Shown in pieces: positions 8,503-35,571 of a DNA stretch of 48,356 bases; position 1 is the stretch's first letter; every line of letters starts with the position of its first letter. This DNA is from a virus. Position numbers and translations under genes: made by a program. Below the pieces are notes generated by a model, which was not told where the DNA came from, searched no databases, and saw only the letters and a program-made list of their open reading frames with translations. The stretch lies in the IMG/VR virus record IMGVR_UViG_3300035691_000009, positions 1 through 48,356 of that record; one strand, given 5' to 3'.

Positions 8503-8845
8503 TGATTGACCCTATTCCGTAGATTGTTCGGATTATTGCGGTATAACTTAGCGTATTATCGCTTATATCGGCTATAAAAGATACTATCTCTACAACCCCC
8601 GCAACCTCTAAAAGTGCTGCACGTACTGCAGCTTGGTACTGTTGAATGTTAGGGACACCGACCCAAACAAGCTCAAAATTTGGAATTCCTTGATTTACTT
8701 GATAAATCATTTCCCCAAGTATAGTTGTTGCCGCATGTTCACATGCTTGCAGCGTTCCTTGTAAATCAAAAACGACAACGAGATTACCATCTTTACCTAG
8801 GTAGATATCATTTTTATCATTTACCGCTAAAGTTTGCGCAGTCAT
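8495..8845 (-). CDS. Baseplate wedge protein, gpW/gp25-like
   Basis: This 116-aa protein has the gpW/T4 gp25 arrangement: an N-terminal strand pair (DIYLGKDGNLVVV), a central helix with CEHAATTILGE, and a C-terminal ferredoxin-like part (AVRAALLEVAGVVEI). Its position before the J-like gene is canonical. In contractile tails it joins the wedge to the sheath-proximal hub. Confidence 0.75.
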   Translation of the reverse strand: MTAQTLAVNDKNDIYLGKDGNLVVVFDLQGTLQACEHAATTILGEMIYQVNQGIPNFELVWVGVPNIQQYQAAVRAALLEVAGVVEIVSFIADISDNTLSYTAIIRTIYGIGSING

Positions 8846-8855
8846 TTAATATCCT

Positions 8856-9587
8856 CTATGGTGGGGGTGGCGGCGGGATTGGAGCCCCTGGAACCCCAGG
8901 AGTAAAGGCAACACTAGAATCGCCATTGCCCAATACATACATAGGCCCACCAAAGTAACCCGCATATACAGTTGTGGCAATACCAGTTACCGCCAATCCG
9001 GCAGTAGTTCTTGTTAAACCTTCGACTACTAATTCCCCTGTAACCGTGGTAACTGGAGAATCTAAAAATATCGCAGGTGCGGTTACCCGTATGTCGGTTT
9101 CACTTAAGGCTATTCTAACGGTTCCATCAAGATTTTGAATAACCATCTTTCCATCTTCTGCACTTACGTCATATCCGGTTAGTACACTGGGAATAAATAC
9201 GCCATCAGAAAAACTTTTAACGCGCATCGTATTTGGGGGCGATTCTTTGTAACTTTGTAAGAACAAACTGATATCACGATCATTTGCACATACGAAACCT
9301 AAATCTCCCTCCTTTAAAGGGAAATTAAGAATGTACCCGCCGCCGCCAAGATTTATTACAGGGAGATTAGCTATTTGCGCTCTACTTACTTGTGCGCCGG
9401 AGGTAGTGATCATTGCGATCATTAGCTCAACCTGTACTCGATTGGCAGTCCTGTCGTACGCCAGAACGCGAGCGGGTAACATACCATCGACACCGCGCAT
9501 CAATTGCTGAAAAGCAAAACGCACCACCCCCGCAAGCGAATCATTATCCGCCGGATTAATATTAGGGTTATTACCTGATGCACTCAT
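8856..9587 (-). CDS. Baseplate spike protein with Gp138-type N-terminal domain
   Basis: This 243-aa puncturing spike protein has an N-terminal OB-fold-like domain (ARVLAYDRTANRVQVELM and VINLGGGGYILNFPLKEGD, as in phage Gp138). Repetitive short strands at about 165-220 suggest a beta-helical needle. A proline run closes the protein, encoded by a C/G-rich stretch near 8858-8873. It overlaps the hub gene (ATGA). Confidence 0.85.
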   Translation of the reverse strand: MSASGNNPNINPADNDSLAGVVRFAFQQLMRGVDGMLPARVLAYDRTANRVQVELMIAMITTSGAQVSRAQIANLPVINLGGGGYILNFPLKEGDLGFVCANDRDISLFLQSYKESPPNTMRVKSFSDGVFIPSVLTGYDVSAEDGKMVIQNLDGTVRIALSETDIRVTAPAIFLDSPVTTVTGELVVEGLTRTTAGLAVTGIATTVYAGYFGGPMYVLGNGDSSVAFTPGVPGAPIPPPPPP

Positions 9588-30200: not shown

Positions 30201-31786
30201 CTGTTATATGTCGCTATGACCTTCGTGGGCGTGTTTGGGGCGCCAAAAGGCGTTGGCGTTACATTGTCTTGAAAATAGGTTTCTGCGTAAGCTGTGGGAA
30301 TCCCAACACCGCCGCCAGAGAGGGCTTCATCAATACCTTTCAAGTTACCGACCACACTGTCTGCTTTCCATTCACCAAGAGGGCCGTCTTGGGGCGTATA
30401 ATTGGAGGGCGTGAAGTACTTATTAGCTAGCATGGCGTCTGCAATAGATGTGGCATCATAAGTTGCGCCATTTACTAATGCAGGCAGTTCGTTTAGGAAA
30501 TCTGCAGTAAATATTACGCGTCCCCCACCAGCGCCGTTATCTAATGTTGGCGTATTGAAATAACTCATGGTCTTCGCGCCAACAAATAAATCACCAGAAT
30601 CGGTAACTTGATATGTAGTCGTTCCGATAACTTTGGAGTTCTCATGAAAGAAAGTGAAATCAGTATTTGTATTATTAACATAACCAAAGTTGCCAATAGT
30701 TGTCATGTCAATAACGCTAAAATTAGGACAATCTGTAACTGTTATATCACCTGATGCACCACTAGCCAATGCGCCATAGCATCGCACCACGTTATAAGAT
30801 AGCTGACTAGAAAATCCAAAGTTATTGCTTATGTTAACGATAGCTCCATTCGTGTAACCAATAACATTCATTAAAGTAGCGGAGGTTATGATGTTATTTG
30901 AGAAATTCAATAATGCGAATGGTGCTTCCATTAAATTAAAATCAAAATCAACAGTAGCAGGCAAATTCAAGCTAGTGAAGTTTTGGAAGAATAAAAAGCC
31001 ACCATTAACCCACGAAGGGTCTAATGATAACGAGCCAGTAATAGTTAATTGGCTTTCGCTACCATAAATAAATACGTTTTGTTTAATAGCTAGGTTTGTC
31101 TCAGTATAACTACCGTTTTGAACGATAATCATGTACGGGCCATCAACTGTTGGATTGATTTGAGACATTGCGTAACTTAATGATGCATAGGGAAACAATA
31201 TGCTCCCATCATTCTCCGCAGGTACATCGCTCCCACTTGGCGCGACATATCTGGTATTAGGATCTGAAGCTAATTCAACATCGCCGGTCTTATTACCATT
31301 GATAGTTTGCACAACGCCTAAAAACTCCCATGCGCCCGCGACACTTGTGCGGTCATTAGGAATTGCGTTATAGCAGGCATGTGGCCCAACTTGAAATATA
31401 AGTGTGTCAGCCCCATTGTGGATATTAATAGGGTCTGACGTATTCCCTGTGATTAATTGAATCGTTTGAGAACCCTGTAAAGATGTAGGCTGATTCTGAG
31501 GCGGAAGCTTCAAGACACGGCCAGGACTTGTCGCGTTCATAACGACAAATATCGGGGGTGGATTAGTAAGCGTATATGTGCCACCCCCTGCTGCAAAGTC
31601 TGAATCATTAACTATCTGAATTCCTGGACGACCTAAACCTAAATTTTCAATAGAGGTTGTATCATCCAAGACGTCAGATAAGTTATTAACCGCAAGCAAA
31701 GCACCTGATGGTGGCGGGCCGCCGCCAGTAGGAACTTGGAATATCTTAAGCCATTTGTAAAAATCCGATCCGATAATATAGCTCAT
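27296..31786 (-). CDS. Giant modular tail fibre / receptor-binding protein
   Basis: This is a 1496-aa protein, starting at ATG 31786 which overlaps the preceding stop (ATGA). Three beta-helix modules open with TRYVAPSGSDVPAEND, IWVNNLDGSDLNQGT and IYIDQLNGDDNNSGT. Between the first two lie two tandem, about 144-residue beta-sandwich copies that begin with FQDNVTPTP. Linkers such as GNLKGIDEAL recur. It is by far the largest gene, and its modules match those of the next gene. It is most likely a long trimeric fibre that binds the host surface. Confidence 0.82.
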   Translation of the reverse strand: MSYIIGSDFYKWLKIFQVPTGGGPPPSGALLAVNNLSDVLDDTTSIENLGLGRPGIQIVNDSDFAAGGGTYTLTNPPPIFVVMNATSPGRVLKLPPQNQPTSLQGSQTIQLITGNTSDPINIHNGADTLIFQVGPHACYNAIPNDRTSVAGAWEFLGVVQTINGNKTGDVELASDPNTRYVAPSGSDVPAENDGSILFPYASLSYAMSQINPTVDGPYMIIVQNGSYTETNLAIKQNVFIYGSESQLTITGSLSLDPSWVNGGFLFFQNFTSLNLPATVDFDFNLMEAPFALLNFSNNIITSATLMNVIGYTNGAIVNISNNFGFSSQLSYNVVRCYGALASGASGDITVTDCPNFSVIDMTTIGNFGYVNNTNTDFTFFHENSKVIGTTTYQVTDSGDLFVGAKTMSYFNTPTLDNGAGGGRVIFTADFLNELPALVNGATYDATSIADAMLANKYFTPSNYTPQDGPLGEWKADSVVGNLKGIDEALSGGGVGIPTAYAETYFQDNVTPTPFGAPNTPTKVIATYNSGDLQQFTQVGGTFTYTGLPNRELNLTAMITATYEGTAQNTSFYITKNGTPIAKSKQTAFIGPITPGNQPLPVQVKTPAVTGNTFELWVENNDNTNSIVVRDVNFGIESLDLSVANIGLLPSYAGMDFQDNVTPTPISAPNTPVKIVATYNAGELKDFTHLNGTLTYQSPVSKVFDLRAVMSATYNGTAQNTSFYIAVSGSVVARSKQKEYIGPTTPADKPAICQALIPLNLGNTVEVWVENNDNSNDPIVSDFNFIAEAMDAIGTSPNISNLTQLIWVNNLDGSDLNQGTIDSPLKTYEAARLLAVSRNPSVNLPFSIILIGKFNITGNMTISPFVNVVGDTSYSTIVIVSGNVVLDAAWGTTTTPFTVFTDIDLVAAGISLVYPAFQAGSFLRFQNSSLQLPNVNIAGAGTNASAERVIFDNCTTDIFGNGPNFTTDNVNFSLLNSATSGVIDVAVTSAVTNANCIIQNLQGPTGNMTINATSTGTLATYISGCDTGGRTLTIDGTSNTVTIDADSYKFKTFAFGSGASFANIKGSISFLIYIDQLNGDDNNSGTINYPMQNYDAARLEALARGANSSQPWDIIVVGAHNIAGDMTLSPNVCIEGQNPYTSGFIVNGNVVIDPNWGLGDLAYTQVRNMYMYLNGTDYLFTFLNPAVFSFLKFVNVAMNTGGFITATGSGTAAGTETIVFENCTNDIPGYADGFLVENVNLFLINTDISAGSVTVTASSADSVNYQFVANNARFYTNDIHVKTNNASTLTTFITACNTMGRTLNIDGVNNTVNVDSTSYMFTLALNGGATLANLVLPTKTDGMTNSSYSPSNYVPSGDTAFEANTLTGNLKGIDEALPQTVINGMTASGFAGVSAVTVLGSHEVKVGNIVVGSIKLQFTSTGSVVNIHAGKSFGSGFLQLEQAIGSGICAKAPFTALGDGSVQIVQAVLFASELELVMDVNGADDYRAEINFTYEVI
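29415..30285 (-). repeat. Tandem duplication of a beta-sandwich domain in the giant fibre
   Basis: The approximate copies are 29846-30285 and 29415-29845. Each starts FQDNVTPTP, continues with an NTP-KV/I-ATYN motif, contains GTAQNTSFYI and ends near WVENNDN. The two proteins differ at many positions, so the duplication is not recent. Confidence 0.8.
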
Positions 31787-31977
31787 TGTAAAATCCACCC
31801 TGAAATGTCGGTTAAGTTAACACCCGTGTAAGTAAAAGTTTGTTTATAAAACTTCAAACTCCCTGGGGGATAATTTACAGTGATAGAAATTACTTGAGTT
31901 CCGGCATACGCAATTTCCTGTTCGAGTGAATCGAGAGGAAGCATAGCACCATCGCTTGCTTGTACGGTTGATGACAT
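31783..31977 (-). CDS. Small hypothetical protein between TerS and fibre
   Basis: This 64-aa acidic protein reads as one small beta-rich domain (VISITVNYPPGSLKFYKQTF). GGGAG is 8 bases upstream. It is coupled to the giant fibre by ATGA. It could be a fibre-associated or head-tail protein, but no family is recognised. Confidence 0.65.
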   Translation of the reverse strand: MSSTVQASDGAMLPLDSLEQEIAYAGTQVISITVNYPPGSLKFYKQTFTYTGVNLTDISGWILQ

Positions 31978-31978
31978 A

Positions 31979-32407
31979 TCAGTGACTCCCTGTCATGATT
32001 TTCTGATAAATTTTAGCAGCTTCAACGGGATCTTTAGTATTGAGAACAAGCTCAACCTTTTCGGGCGGTTTGTCTTCCTTGATTTCCAGATGACTCTTCT
32101 TAACCCAATTCCCGCCGCCTTGTTTTTCCAGATAGAACATTATAGCCTTTAAATTACCTTTTTTCACCAGTTCCATTAGCTTACTTGAAACAAAGGCAAC
32201 TGTTTTGGCTCTACCGCGCTTAATAGTCTCTGCAATTTCTGGATATCTTGCTAGTGTAGCATACCAACCAGATTTTTTAAGACCGAAAAAATTAGCTATT
32301 TGCAAAGGCTTCATTTGACCTGCAAGACCTTCAATTGTCTTTAGGTTTTCTGGAGTTGGCTCAAGGCGTAACTTTGGGCCGACTTTAGCCTTCTTTTTCG
32401 CTGTCAT
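31979..32407 (-). CDS. terS: Terminase small subunit-like protein
   Basis: This 142-aa basic protein has an HTH-like N-terminal part (MKPLQIANFFGLKKSGWYAT) and the segment MFYLEKQGGGNWVKKSHLEI seen in small terminases. It recognises phage DNA for packaging. It is separated from terL by the fibre genes, an unusual order. It overlaps the ParB-like gene by 23 bases. Confidence 0.75.
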   Translation of the reverse strand: MTAKKKAKVGPKLRLEPTPENLKTIEGLAGQMKPLQIANFFGLKKSGWYATLARYPEIAETIKRGRAKTVAFVSSKLMELVKKGNLKAIMFYLEKQGGGNWVKKSHLEIKEDKPPEKVELVLNTKDPVEAAKIYQKIMTGSH

Positions 32408-33002
32408 CGAAAATCTCTCCTGTTGATTCTAAGATGGCCTTTTGTGATGTAAGTCCTTGCCAATGCCGTATTAAATCATCACATATCTTAGGATTCTCCC
32501 CACATTCTAGCTTATGGTTACCTAATAGCCAAATGTCTCCGAACTTACATATTGATTCTTTCGGGTCACTGTCAGAATCTGTCTGCGGCTGGTAATCAAC
32601 GATTTCAGGATTTAAAATGGCGTCTATTTCATCTTGGTCAAAGCCCGTAAGTGTTGGGTCAAAGTCATCGCTAATGATGTCCTCAAACTCATGCTTCAGT
32701 AGCTCGTAATCCCATCCAGCTTTAAGCGCCAATTTGTTCGCAGCCAAAATATAAGCCTTTTGGGCCGCTTTAGTTAGATGACTATGGGTAATAGTAGGCA
32801 CCTCAAGAAATCCTAGCCTTCGGGCTGCTTCAAGGCGGGCGTGGCCTGAAATGACCACATTGGCAGCATCTACCTCAATCGGGTCTAGAAAACCGTAAGT
32901 CGTAATACTATCCATTATCTCCTTAATTTGTTCATCACTATGCGTCCGAGCGTTATGTTCGTACCCTGTCAAAATATCCAATGATTTCTTGATAATTTCC
33001 AT
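32385..33002 (-). CDS. ParB-like protein with deleted methyltransferase core
   Basis: This is a 205-aa protein. The N-terminal ParB/sulfiredoxin-type domain shows HNARTHSDEQI (residues 16-26) and VISGHARLEAARRLG (50-64). After residue 150 comes GDIWLLGNHKLECGE (155-169), which normally introduces the DNA methylase part of ParB-methylases. It is followed at once by DDLIRHWQGLTSQKAIL (175-191), which normally ends it. The SAM- and DPPY-bearing core is absent. Upstream AAAGGGAT supports the start. It may regulate or nick DNA at the late promoter region, but activity is unknown. Confidence 0.82.
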   Translation of the reverse strand: MEIIKKSLDILTGYEHNARTHSDEQIKEIMDSITTYGFLDPIEVDAANVVISGHARLEAARRLGFLEVPTITHSHLTKAAQKAYILAANKLALKAGWDYELLKHEFEDIISDDFDPTLTGFDQDEIDAILNPEIVDYQPQTDSDSDPKESICKFGDIWLLGNHKLECGENPKICDDLIRHWQGLTSQKAILESTGEIFDDSEKEG

Positions 33003-33447: not shown

Positions 33448-33723
33448 ATGCAAGCACGATTAGACGCGATATCAAAGAACCAAAAAACATATATAGCAGA
33501 ACACCCTTGCATGCGTGGCCACGAGCCAATACGCTACGCAAGTACTGGTATATGTGTATTTTGTAATAGGCAAAGAGCTATTGATGCCAGGGCAAAAATT
33601 ATTAATAAAGCATGGGGGTTTAAAGAACGAACAGTTATGGTTCATGACGCAGATTGGGAATATGTTCAAAGAATAGTTAAACAGACCGAAATGGCTAGAA
33701 AATTACAGGAAGGAAAGATATGA
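33448..33723 (+). CDS. Small zinc-finger protein
   Basis: This 91-aa protein has the metal-binding pattern CMRGHEPIRYASTGICVFC at residues 21-39, followed by RQRAIDARAK. This C-GH-RY-C-C arrangement recurs in small phage proteins of unknown role. GGAG precedes the ATG by 9 bases. It leads the rightward accessory block and is coupled to the next gene by ATGA. Confidence 0.75.
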   Translation: MQARLDAISKNQKTYIAEHPCMRGHEPIRYASTGICVFCNRQRAIDARAKIINKAWGFKERTVMVHDADWEYVQRIVKQTEMARKLQEGKI

Positions 33724-34217
33724 AATTTGATGGTATTAAAAGAGGAATAGAGATTTTTTCAGACGCTTGCCAAACTACCGATACCATGAAAATAGCTATG
33801 GTTTTATCAATTATTAGGGATTTAATATGCGTTATCGAAAATGAACCTGCTAAAAGCGATGAAAAAGCTATGGGACAACATTTAGACGATATTTATACAA
33901 GACTTGAGAATATTGAAGGCTATTTATTTAACCCATTTAAACAATCAGGACTTACAAAGCATTTAGAGCGCTTAGAGCAACGCTTGCCCCCGCTATATAC
34001 GCCTATTGATGATTCTAAACAAGATAAAGGAACTACTGTTTATTACCCCGTGTATTTTGATGTGGCTTTAGTTGCATTTAGACAAGGTAAAACTATCAAG
34101 CATAGGTCTTGGGATAAAGGTATTAATTTAAGTAATTTTGAGGATGAATCAAGAGGAGGTAATTTAGCTATTCGAGTAAAAGATATGGTGTATGAAAGTT
34201 GGATAATATTAGACTAA
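33720..34217 (+). CDS. Protein with Tad2/DUF2829-like C-terminal domain (first copy)
   Basis: This is a 165-aa protein. The N-terminal 100 residues are helical with a coiled-coil-like part (DIYTRLENIEGYL). The C-terminal about 55 residues read VYFDVALVAFRQGKTIKHRS with a following W-D-K-G, then a strand block, and end KDMVYESWIILD. This corresponds to the DUF2829 pattern F..AL.A...GK.v.r..W..g ... w.i, the family of the anti-Thoeris protein Tad2. The domain is shorter than typical Tad2 and lacks the usual PWIAM segment. It may bind a small signalling molecule. Similarity is read by eye. Confidence 0.65.
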   Translation: MKFDGIKRGIEIFSDACQTTDTMKIAMVLSIIRDLICVIENEPAKSDEKAMGQHLDDIYTRLENIEGYLFNPFKQSGLTKHLERLEQRLPPLYTPIDDSKQDKGTTVYYPVYFDVALVAFRQGKTIKHRSWDKGINLSNFEDESRGGNLAIRVKDMVYESWIILD

Positions 34218-34231
34218 TTTAAGGAAAACTT

Positions 34232-34621
34232 ATGAGTATTGAAGATGAATTAACTGCTATTAAATCAATAATTAAATCGGGTAGTAAAGTACCAGATGAA
34301 AGGTTTCATGATGTCCTAGAAAGACTTTATTTATTTTCTGTTCAAATAAATGGTCGGATAGCTGATTTAGAAGATAAACGTGCAGAAATTGTTAAATATG
34401 CGAATGATTTAAATGACCGTCTTTCGTTTGTTGAAGAAACTCTTGATATTGACGTTCCTTATCCTAAAGTCTCTTTTGAAGTAGCTTTTGCGGCTATGAA
34501 ACAAGGTAAAACCATTAAGCATGCCAATTGGGATCCCCAAGTAAATCTTAAAAACCTTAACTACAATGCCTCATGGCTTCTTCATGACATGATGTCGGAT
34601 GAATGGATAATACTTGACTAA
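34232..34621 (+). CDS. Protein with Tad2/DUF2829-like C-terminal domain (second copy)
   Basis: This 129-aa paralogue of the upstream gene has a different helical N-terminus (DELTAIKSIIKSGSK) but a matching C-terminus: SFEVAFAAMKQGKTIKHANW then D-P-Q and MSDEWIILD. AAGGA precedes the start. Paired copies sharing only the last domain suggest that this domain is the working part and the N-terminus determines assembly or partner. Confidence 0.65.
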   Translation: MSIEDELTAIKSIIKSGSKVPDERFHDVLERLYLFSVQINGRIADLEDKRAEIVKYANDLNDRLSFVEETLDIDVPYPKVSFEVAFAAMKQGKTIKHANWDPQVNLKNLNYNASWLLHDMMSDEWIILD

Positions 34622-34622
34622 C

Positions 34623-34730
34623 TATAGTTGATGGACTATATTTGTAACCGAGGACTGAGGGCATTGTAAGAGCGATGTGACTATCTCAGGGGCTGATAGC
34701 ATGCTATGCAGTTGATAAGTCGCCAACTCT
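34623..34730 (+). ncRNA. Candidate structured RNA (series of hairpins)
   Basis: This 146-base interval has no gene but several foldable units. TATAGT/ACTATA (34623-34640) comes first, then CTGAG (34655-34659)/CTCAG (34685-34689). CTGATAG with CTAT-G-CAG closes on CATG (34693-34711), and AGTTG/CAACT (34710-34728) follows. It could be a leader for the downstream mini-gene or a stand-alone RNA. It is predicted by eye only. Confidence 0.4.
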
Positions 34731-34767
34731 CCTGTTTGGCCAGTTCTCACTTTGATTAGGGATTTAA

Positions 34768-34857
34768 ATGCTTAACATTATGTGTCCGTATTGTTTTGGA
34801 TTTGGATGTGCCAAATGTTGGTATACGGGCGACTACATATTATGGGCTATTGGATAA
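34768..34857 (+). CDS. Cysteine-rich micro-protein with DnaJ-type zinc motif
   Basis: This 29-aa protein has CPYCFGFGCAKCWYTG in the middle, that is CxxCxGxGC-x2-C, very close to half of a DnaJ zinc-binding repeat. An AGGGA lies just upstream. Proteins of this kind occur in phages next to zinc-finger genes. The function is unknown. It lies between two structured RNAs. Confidence 0.6.
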   Translation: MLNIMCPYCFGFGCAKCWYTGDYILWAIG

Positions 34858-34918
34858 ACTTTTGACTTAACAACAAAACAGTTTACTTGACGCACCAATA
34901 GCCCGCCATTTTATGCTT

Positions 34919-34986
34919 ATAGAGATAACTCAATCGGTAGAGTGCCGGTACGCCGGAAGTTGATGGTTCAAATCCTTCTCTCTATA
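34919..34986 (+). ncRNA. tRNA-like RNA lacking an anticodon loop
   Basis: All tRNA parts but one are present. The acceptor ATAGAGA/TCTCTAT (34919-34925, 34979-34985) has 7 perfect pairs. U8-A9 follow, and the D arm is ACTC/GAGT with the loop AATCGGTA (conserved GG). The T arm is GATGG/CCTTC with the canonical TTCAAAT loop and one mismatch. The discriminator is A. In place of a 17-base anticodon arm there are 12 bases: CCGG-TACG-CCGG, a 4-bp stem with a tetraloop. There is no anticodon and no encoded CCA. The acceptor helix extends four more pairs (GCTT/AAGC). It cannot decode a codon. Confidence 0.65.
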
Positions 34987-35044
34987 AGCGTTAAACGCGA
35001 CGATGCCGTCTGAACCGGCGGCACACGAGCGATAGGAGATGATA

Positions 35045-35215
35045 ATGTTTGATAATTTATTTAAAGCAACCTTGGGGGTGGCATTGTTGCCAGTAGCTGC
35101 AGCGGCTGATGTAGTCACATTAGGCGGTGTGTTAACTGATAACAACAAACCTTTTACTCAAGAATGCGCGGAAACAATAGCAAGTAATTTACGAGATGCT
35201 GTAACCAAGGATTAG
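35045..35215 (+). CDS. Small Ala-rich phage protein
   Basis: This 56-aa protein starts MFDNLFKATLGVALLPVAAA, then DVVTLGGVLTDN. It resembles a frequent short phage protein family of unknown role (MFxNLFKA... ADVVTLGG). A hydrophobic segment spans residues 9-22. AGGAGAT precedes the start. It follows the tRNA-like element by 58 bases. Confidence 0.75.
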   Translation: MFDNLFKATLGVALLPVAAAADVVTLGGVLTDNNKPFTQECAETIASNLRDAVTKD

Positions 35216-35223
35216 GAGATAGT

Positions 35224-35571
35224 ATGACAGTTGAAATAGCTACATGTGCAATGAGTGTAATATTAGCGGCCCATTCACCGATGCCAATGGATTTTTATAG
35301 TGACCACGGTGTATCGATTACTAACACAACTCAAGCACCTATAGGATATAAGATTAGCTATTATCACGAGGTCATGAATATGTTTAACGATAAGATGACC
35401 ATTAACATTATTGTTAATCCTGGTCAAACTTATACAGACGTTAGGCGCTTTACTAATAAAAAGGTTTGGGACTCTTCGGGCCAATATTATACGCGATCAG
35501 TTACGACCATATCGTTTGATGGCAAGAAGATAGCAAGCTGTGCTAATAATAACTATGCGTATATAACATGA
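35224..35571 (+). CDS. Hypothetical protein, possibly exported
   Basis: This 115-aa protein has a weakly hydrophobic start (MTVEIATCAMSVILAAHS) and a beta-rich body (SITNTTQAPIGYKISYY, NIIVNPGQTYTDV). The body resembles a small immunoglobulin-like or extracellular fold. No family is recognised. It follows GGAG and is coupled to the next gene (ATGA). Confidence 0.65.
   Translation: MTVEIATCAMSVILAAHSPMPMDFYSDHGVSITNTTQAPIGYKISYYHEVMNMFNDKMTINIIVNPGQTYTDVRRFTNKKVWDSSGQYYTRSVTTISFDGKKIASCANNNYAYIT

Follow-up and report, generated by a model that had tools for sequence, protein, structure and literature searches.

What would a phage gain from a tRNA that cannot read a codon? The carriage of tRNA genes by phages is an old question, usually answered by codon supply and more recently by escape from anticodon nucleases. 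It takes a different form at the locus considered here, in a viral sequence of 48,356 nucleotides (IMG/VR record IMGVR_UViG_3300035691_000009, analysed as a whole and referred to below as the window), where an RNA with the shape of a tRNA at 34919–34986 on the plus strand has no proper anticodon loop. Any fitness effect of such a tRNA-shaped, non-decoding phage RNA must stem from its fold and not from decoding.

The initial annotation had described a tRNA-like RNA without an anticodon loop at this site, and that description stands. Read from the sequence, the cloverleaf occupies 34919–34985 on the plus strand, with base 73 (A) at 34986. The acceptor strands ATAGAGA (34919–34925) and TCTCTAT (34979–34985) form seven pairs out of seven. 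The D arm, ACTC-AATCGGTA-GAGT (34928–34943), carries GG in its loop, as annotated, both in the sequence itself and in the Rfam alignment. It is followed by G26 (34944), the closed anticodon arm CCGG-TACG-CCGG (34945–34956), the variable loop AAGTT (34957–34961) and the T arm GATGG-TTCAAAT-CCTTC (34962–34978). The Rfam tRNA model (RF00005) matches 34919–34986 from end to end with 53.6 bits (E = 7.9e-9 for the whole window), well over the gathering score of 29 for a molecule with acceptor, D and T arms. Folding also yields a cloverleaf, at −27.3 kcal/mol compared with −16.2 kcal/mol for shuffled sequences (z = −3.6), so the tRNA-like fold is far beyond chance.

In the RF00005 alignment the anticodon stem strands CCGGU and GCCGG have AC alone between them, reducing the 7-nt loop to 2 nt; the arm measures 12 nt in place of 17, and it is five loop nucleotides that are missing. 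In a functional tRNA the anticodon stem has 5 bp and its loop 7 nt, where this arm offers either the two nucleotides of the alignment or, in the predicted fold, a 4-bp stem capped by UACG. Because the arm, CCGG(TACG)CCGG, is five nucleotides below normal, the element is unable to decode, as had been claimed, and ARAGORN, which requires an anticodon loop, reports no tRNA in the window. The cap had been assigned to the UNCG class on a 4-bp stem. The UACG itself is there, but the extra stability of UNCG loops is given by a C-G closing pair and the pair that closes this one is G-C. The elements of the elbow are present, namely TA at bases 8–9, G18–G19 and a TTCRA-type T loop. The T arm, with its annotated TTCAAAT, is not perfectly paired, since its stem contains one mismatch, U51–U63. 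This is no proof of decay, because the intact-looking tRNA-Trp of the crAss-like phage cr116_1 has an identical T arm (GATGGTTCAAATCCTTC) with the identical mismatch.

The acceptor helix turned out to be longer than the 11 bp first assigned to it. The perfect 7 bp are continued by six extra pairs, five of them Watson-Crick and one G-U, formed between 34913–34918 and 34986–34991 on the plus strand, to give a helix of 13 bp; beyond this come one mismatch and then three A-T pairs. For a single element the chance of six further acceptor pairs is about 0.003. Elsewhere the extension amounts to 0–3 pairs, in the 86 other short-arm sequences described below, and it does not exceed three in regular tRNAs from the same loci (n = 59). 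The partner strand of the extension takes up positions 73–76, which read AAGC. CCA is not encoded and, with these bases paired within the 13-bp helix, there is no exposed CCA end, whereas a functional tRNA has an unpaired base 73 and a CCA end that is either encoded or addable. The earlier proposal of a 3′-end-like element for aminoacylation is not borne out by such a terminus. Charging with alanine through a G3-U70 pair was also considered and rejected, as pair 3–70 is A-U.

The element lies among other predicted structures. Upstream is a hairpin (34844–34904, plus strand) whose 10-bp stem, GGGCTATTGG/CCAATAGCCC, is perfectly paired and which is possibly on the same transcript as the tRNA-like RNA; a GC-rich hairpin (34996–35032, plus strand) fills the space between the tRNA-like RNA and the ribosome-binding site of the next gene. 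The 211-nt stretch that includes both hairpins (34835–35045) folds with a z-score of −3.75. The downstream gene (35039–35215, plus strand), preceded by a good ribosome-binding site, encodes a protein of 58 amino acids that matches phrog_33676, a family of unassigned function. Promoter and terminator scans near the element gave nothing beyond chance. The downstream hairpin also contains, at 35003–35014 on the plus strand, the 12-mer ATGCCGTCTGAA, which is the Neisseria DNA uptake sequence. It was weighed as a hint of a Neisseria origin, but it occurs once in the 48 kb, a frequency not above chance. Just upstream of the tRNA-like RNA, a reading frame of 29 amino acids with CPYCFGFGCAKC (34768–34857, plus strand) could, judging by this motif, encode a zinc-binding micro-protein.

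The terminase of the phage is approximately 61% identical to those of Burkholderia phage Magia and similar phages, and its primase is 41–45% identical to those of Acinetobacter phage Scuro and Jedunavirus-type phages. The element was not found in Magia, yong1 and IFTN9, the phages closest by terminase, and no relative carrying it was reached through the primase or the 58-residue downstream protein. When phages and plasmids were searched for the window copy itself, they returned only partial tRNA similarity, with tRNA-Trp among the closer matches; the copy is thus single, with no close relative in the collections searched. Within the window it sits in a block of small genes on the plus strand, flanked by two blocks on the minus strand. 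A syntenic relative, L362, has a similar small-gene block between ParB-type and helix-turn-helix genes that are 53–60% identical to those of the window phage, and there is no tRNA or tRNA-like RNA at its locus, so the element is either an accessory gain in the window phage or a loss in L362. The neighbouring plus-strand genes at 33720–34217 and 34232–34621 are tandem paralogues, 41% identical, which share the C-terminal motif GKTIKH..WD..NL and WIILD. The initial annotation had taken them for Tad2-like genes; this is a weak assignment, as PF11195 matches one of the two with 13.6 bits (E = 0.1), where the cut-off is 25.

A pattern search in viral contigs placed the element in a wider class. The pattern specified a canonical D arm and a canonical T arm 17–22 bases apart, compared with a regular spacing of around 24–26 bases, and left the acceptor unspecified; in many matches from viral sequences the acceptor was nevertheless paired. 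At least 87 non-redundant tRNA-like sequences, the window copy included, have a shortened anticodon region and keep the acceptor, D and T arms intact. Complete scans yielded 71 stretches for a TAGCTCA-type D arm at a spacing of 20–21 and nine for the TAACTCA-type D arm of the window; looser scans contributed from among the matches listed, many of which were false hits. A scan targeted at TNCG gave no convincing member besides L126, which was already known. Matches from a scan of cellular genomes were, among those listed, mostly false or masked, and for this reason we claim no enrichment in phages over their hosts. A covariance model built for the short-arm sequences was dropped as a classifier, as ordinary tRNAs match it well too.

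The window element fits this class, with its three intact arms and a capped hairpin in an anticodon region several nucleotides short. The members are heterogeneous: a 4-bp stem with a 4-nt loop is found in L103, L126, L082, L107, L011 and L190, the arm of L017 has 5 bp and 3 nt, and L159 and L213 keep a 7-nt loop and are short in other parts. A handful are called as tRNAs by ARAGORN, and because the program skips most of the others, the class is probably largely unannotated. The open-access literature covers mutations in phage tRNA loops, tRNA fragments arising from integration, and eukaryotic and viral tRNA mimicry; no phage class of tRNA-like RNAs with a closed anticodon arm is described there, though other papers may exist.

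Members occur either in tRNA arrays or alone between genes: about 35 of the 87 have ordinary tRNA genes no more than 300 nt away, and the other 52 have none at that distance. Those in arrays share the strand of the adjacent tRNAs in nearly every case. On rough gene calls, solitary members are co-directional with the flanking gene by 37 to 11 on the upstream side and 30 to 20 on the downstream side, and many are located a few tens of bases 5′ of the next start codon. One phage (L229) has two near-identical tRNA-like RNAs 390 bases apart (8714–8779 and 9102–9167, plus strand), alike in their arms and different in the sequences of the anticodon region. The copies L140/L355, L357/L035 and L229 come from contigs of isolate genomes. 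The closed-arm RNAs of L357 (7589–7655, minus strand) and L358 (7711–7773, minus strand) are approximately 73% identical in loci otherwise without detectable similarity, a likeness that suggests either transfer between phages or convergence on the tRNA consensus.

Is the short arm selected, or is it simply what a deletion leaves behind? Anticodon-region stems of at least 4 bp with loops of 3–5 nt were present in 46 of 82 sequences, compared with about 16 in shuffled mid-sections, and the exact 1-4-4-4 geometry was seen 15 times in the same set, compared with 1.9 in shuffles. Taken alone this excess is weak evidence, because an ancestral stem would stay paired after a deletion within the loop. 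The content of the loop is a stronger argument against a left-over: GNRA or UNCG caps account for 9 of 24 tetraloop arms, a set that excludes the window's own UACG, where 5.5% is expected from shuffles forming such arms (p ~3e-6). The strongest argument comes from diverged pairs of related elements. Covariation across unrelated members was set aside as proof, since base pairs in the acceptor, T stem and arm differ from one tRNA to another in any case and such covariation is partly inherited from tRNA ancestry; ortholog pairs were used instead. L143 and L228 are nearly identical and have a common short arm, but the two outer pairs of the T stem read GA..TC in one and CC..GG in the other, a fully compensated exchange. 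The arrays that contain L181 and L219 are about 72% identical in nucleotide sequence. Between these two the GGAA cap is kept, while GGCC/GGTT in the arm becomes GGC/GCC and CGGGG/CCCCG in the T stem becomes ACGGG/CCCGT. Across L357, L035 and L358 the arm varies in size and stays a hairpin, with acceptor and T stem re-paired. For any one of these sets, recombination with other tRNAs is a possible alternative source of the change. Loss of the loop kept together with covariation, which the initial annotation had proposed as a check in related phages, is therefore seen in these other phages of the class and not at the present locus, where the syntenic L362 is without the element and the collections searched hold no relative of the window copy.

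The 3′ end tells a more equivocal story. CCA is encoded in 10 of the 87 class members compared with 22 of 59 regular tRNAs from the same loci. A C at base 73 is found in 22 of 87 compared with 2 of 59, so the 3′ end is free of the constraint on translating tRNAs. This relaxation argues against a use in translation, and it fits a non-decoding role and decay alike. The distribution of deletion sizes across the class declines smoothly, and this agrees with decay too.

RNA processing, a decoy and a loop-deleted remnant had been named as candidate explanations, and they are the right ones to weigh. We tentatively favour a tRNA-shaped, non-decoding RNA that acts in cis on the processing or stability of RNA. 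Sequence and comparison show a phage RNA module, probably of a recurring kind, whose acceptor, D and T arms keep the elbow and in which a short capped hairpin stands in for the unneeded anticodon arm. With similar caution we lean towards the view that diverse phages share recurrent non-decoding tRNA mimics, in which a capped mini-hairpin replaces the anticodon arm, and that these are kept by selection because the elbow is needed and decoding is not, whether for processing transcripts or for occupying host enzymes that bind or cut tRNA. RNase P, RNase Z, the CCA-adding enzyme and others recognise the elbow together with the acceptor and T arm and have no need of the anticodon (PMC4810234); this would be the useful part. 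In cis, the host tRNA-handling machinery, or the compact fold itself, could set the ends or the stability of the surrounding phage transcript, in this case presumably the leader of the gene at 35039. In other members, where the acceptor ends normally after 7–10 bp and CCA is mostly unencoded, cutting by RNase P and RNase Z is plausible. Ordinary end maturation of the window copy is unlikely because its acceptor has 13 bp, and it would more likely protect or structure the leader, or else the copy may be on its way to loss. We infer the function of this copy from the class, because no relative of the window phage carries the element and L362 is without it. The same facts count against the reading: for a single copy with no close relative in the collections searched, absent in L362, selection would be conjectural.

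It is quite possible, then, that an acquired tRNA gene lost five anticodon-loop nucleotides and persists as a recent, functionless remnant. Its absence from L362 agrees with this, as do the AAGC at 73–76 and the unencoded CCA, and loss of exactly five loop bases leaves CCGGU-AC-GCCGG, which re-forms the 4-bp stem and UACG without any selection. The smooth fall-off of deletion sizes in the class, the relaxed base 73 and CCA, and the members L159 and L213, which keep the 7-nt loop yet have lost other parts, point the same way. A remnant would not, however, be expected to possess the 13-bp helix, given the small chance of six further pairs in one element, and it would have had to keep all seven acceptor pairs and an intact elbow; the T-stem mismatch, shared with an intact-looking tRNA-Trp, is no sign of decay, and compensatory change and the enrichment of stable caps in the class also speak against it. 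For the window copy, the class evidence tips the choice between functional non-decoding mimic and recent remnant slightly to the mimic.

Action in trans seems unlikely. A decoy would occupy defence nucleases, toxins or modification enzymes that read the acceptor and T arms, without presenting the loop that anticodon nucleases cut. The intact elbow and acceptor and the position in an accessory block of small genes are in keeping with this. The parts of a tRNA bound by Cas12a3 are the CCA tail, the T arm and the acceptor stem, and its cleavage is unimpaired by removal of tRNA loops (PMC12851939); tRNA-targeting defences are countered by phage tRNAs (PMC10264068, PMC11555353). A counter-defence role is possible on these grounds, but a decoy for tail-targeting enzymes should show a CCA-like end, whereas positions 73–76 are paired here and CCA is rarely encoded in the class. 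Moreover, no known defence partner lies nearby, the Tad2 match of the neighbouring gene being below threshold, and a sponge would need high expression. We consider it very improbable that the element is a fragment of a tRNA integration site (attP/att) left by a temperate phage or island. Such fragments often lie behind odd tRNA calls (PMC9897764), but both halves of this molecule are complete and what it lacks is internal. The phage proteins examined, which represent part of the open reading frames, included no integrase, and the replication-gene relatives are Jedunavirus/Scuro-type phages. An integration-site origin was rejected because both halves are present and no integrase was seen among those proteins.

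Compared with known systems, the element resembles canonical phage tRNA genes (RF00005) in its acceptor, D and T arms, TA at bases 8–9, G18–G19 and TTCRA T loop, and differs from them in having neither anticodon loop nor CCA, in its 13-bp acceptor helix and in being non-decoding. The bacterial Y RNA YrlA has a non-decoding, tRNA-like module that mimics elbow-type arms, a likeness that extends to the present RNA; however, no covariance match to Y RNA was obtained, and tRNA was the only Rfam match in 34600–35300 up to an E value of 1. The tRNA-like domain of tmRNA similarly provides a tRNA-like end without an anticodon, but the element has a true D stem, no G3-U70 pair and no mRNA-like domain with a tag peptide, and the ARAGORN search for tmRNA was negative; neither identity was supported. 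The MALAT1-associated mascRNA is a tRNA-like RNA with a reduced anticodon arm, and this and similar eukaryotic processing elements are alike in form; they are mammalian and not homologous to this phage RNA, in which the acceptor is extended and cleavage would be hypothetical. More generally, some RNAs mimic tRNA to recruit RNase P (PMC4810234). Phage tRNAs with anticodon-loop mutations that evade anticodon nucleases (PMC10264068) are also phage-borne and altered in the loop, but they still decode, whereas in this element the loop is gone.

Two further observations concern the flanking genes and the relatives of the phage. The ParB-like gene at 32385–33002 on the minus strand retains its ParB portion at the N terminus and, in frame, some 25 residues at the C terminus, without a methyltransferase core; its homologue in L362 is 411 residues long, and the gene appears from this comparison to be an internally deleted ParB-methyltransferase. 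In Burkholderia phage Magia (L345), an Rfam RT-15 RNA at 31780–31962 on the minus strand adjoins the reverse transcriptase of a diversity-generating retroelement region.
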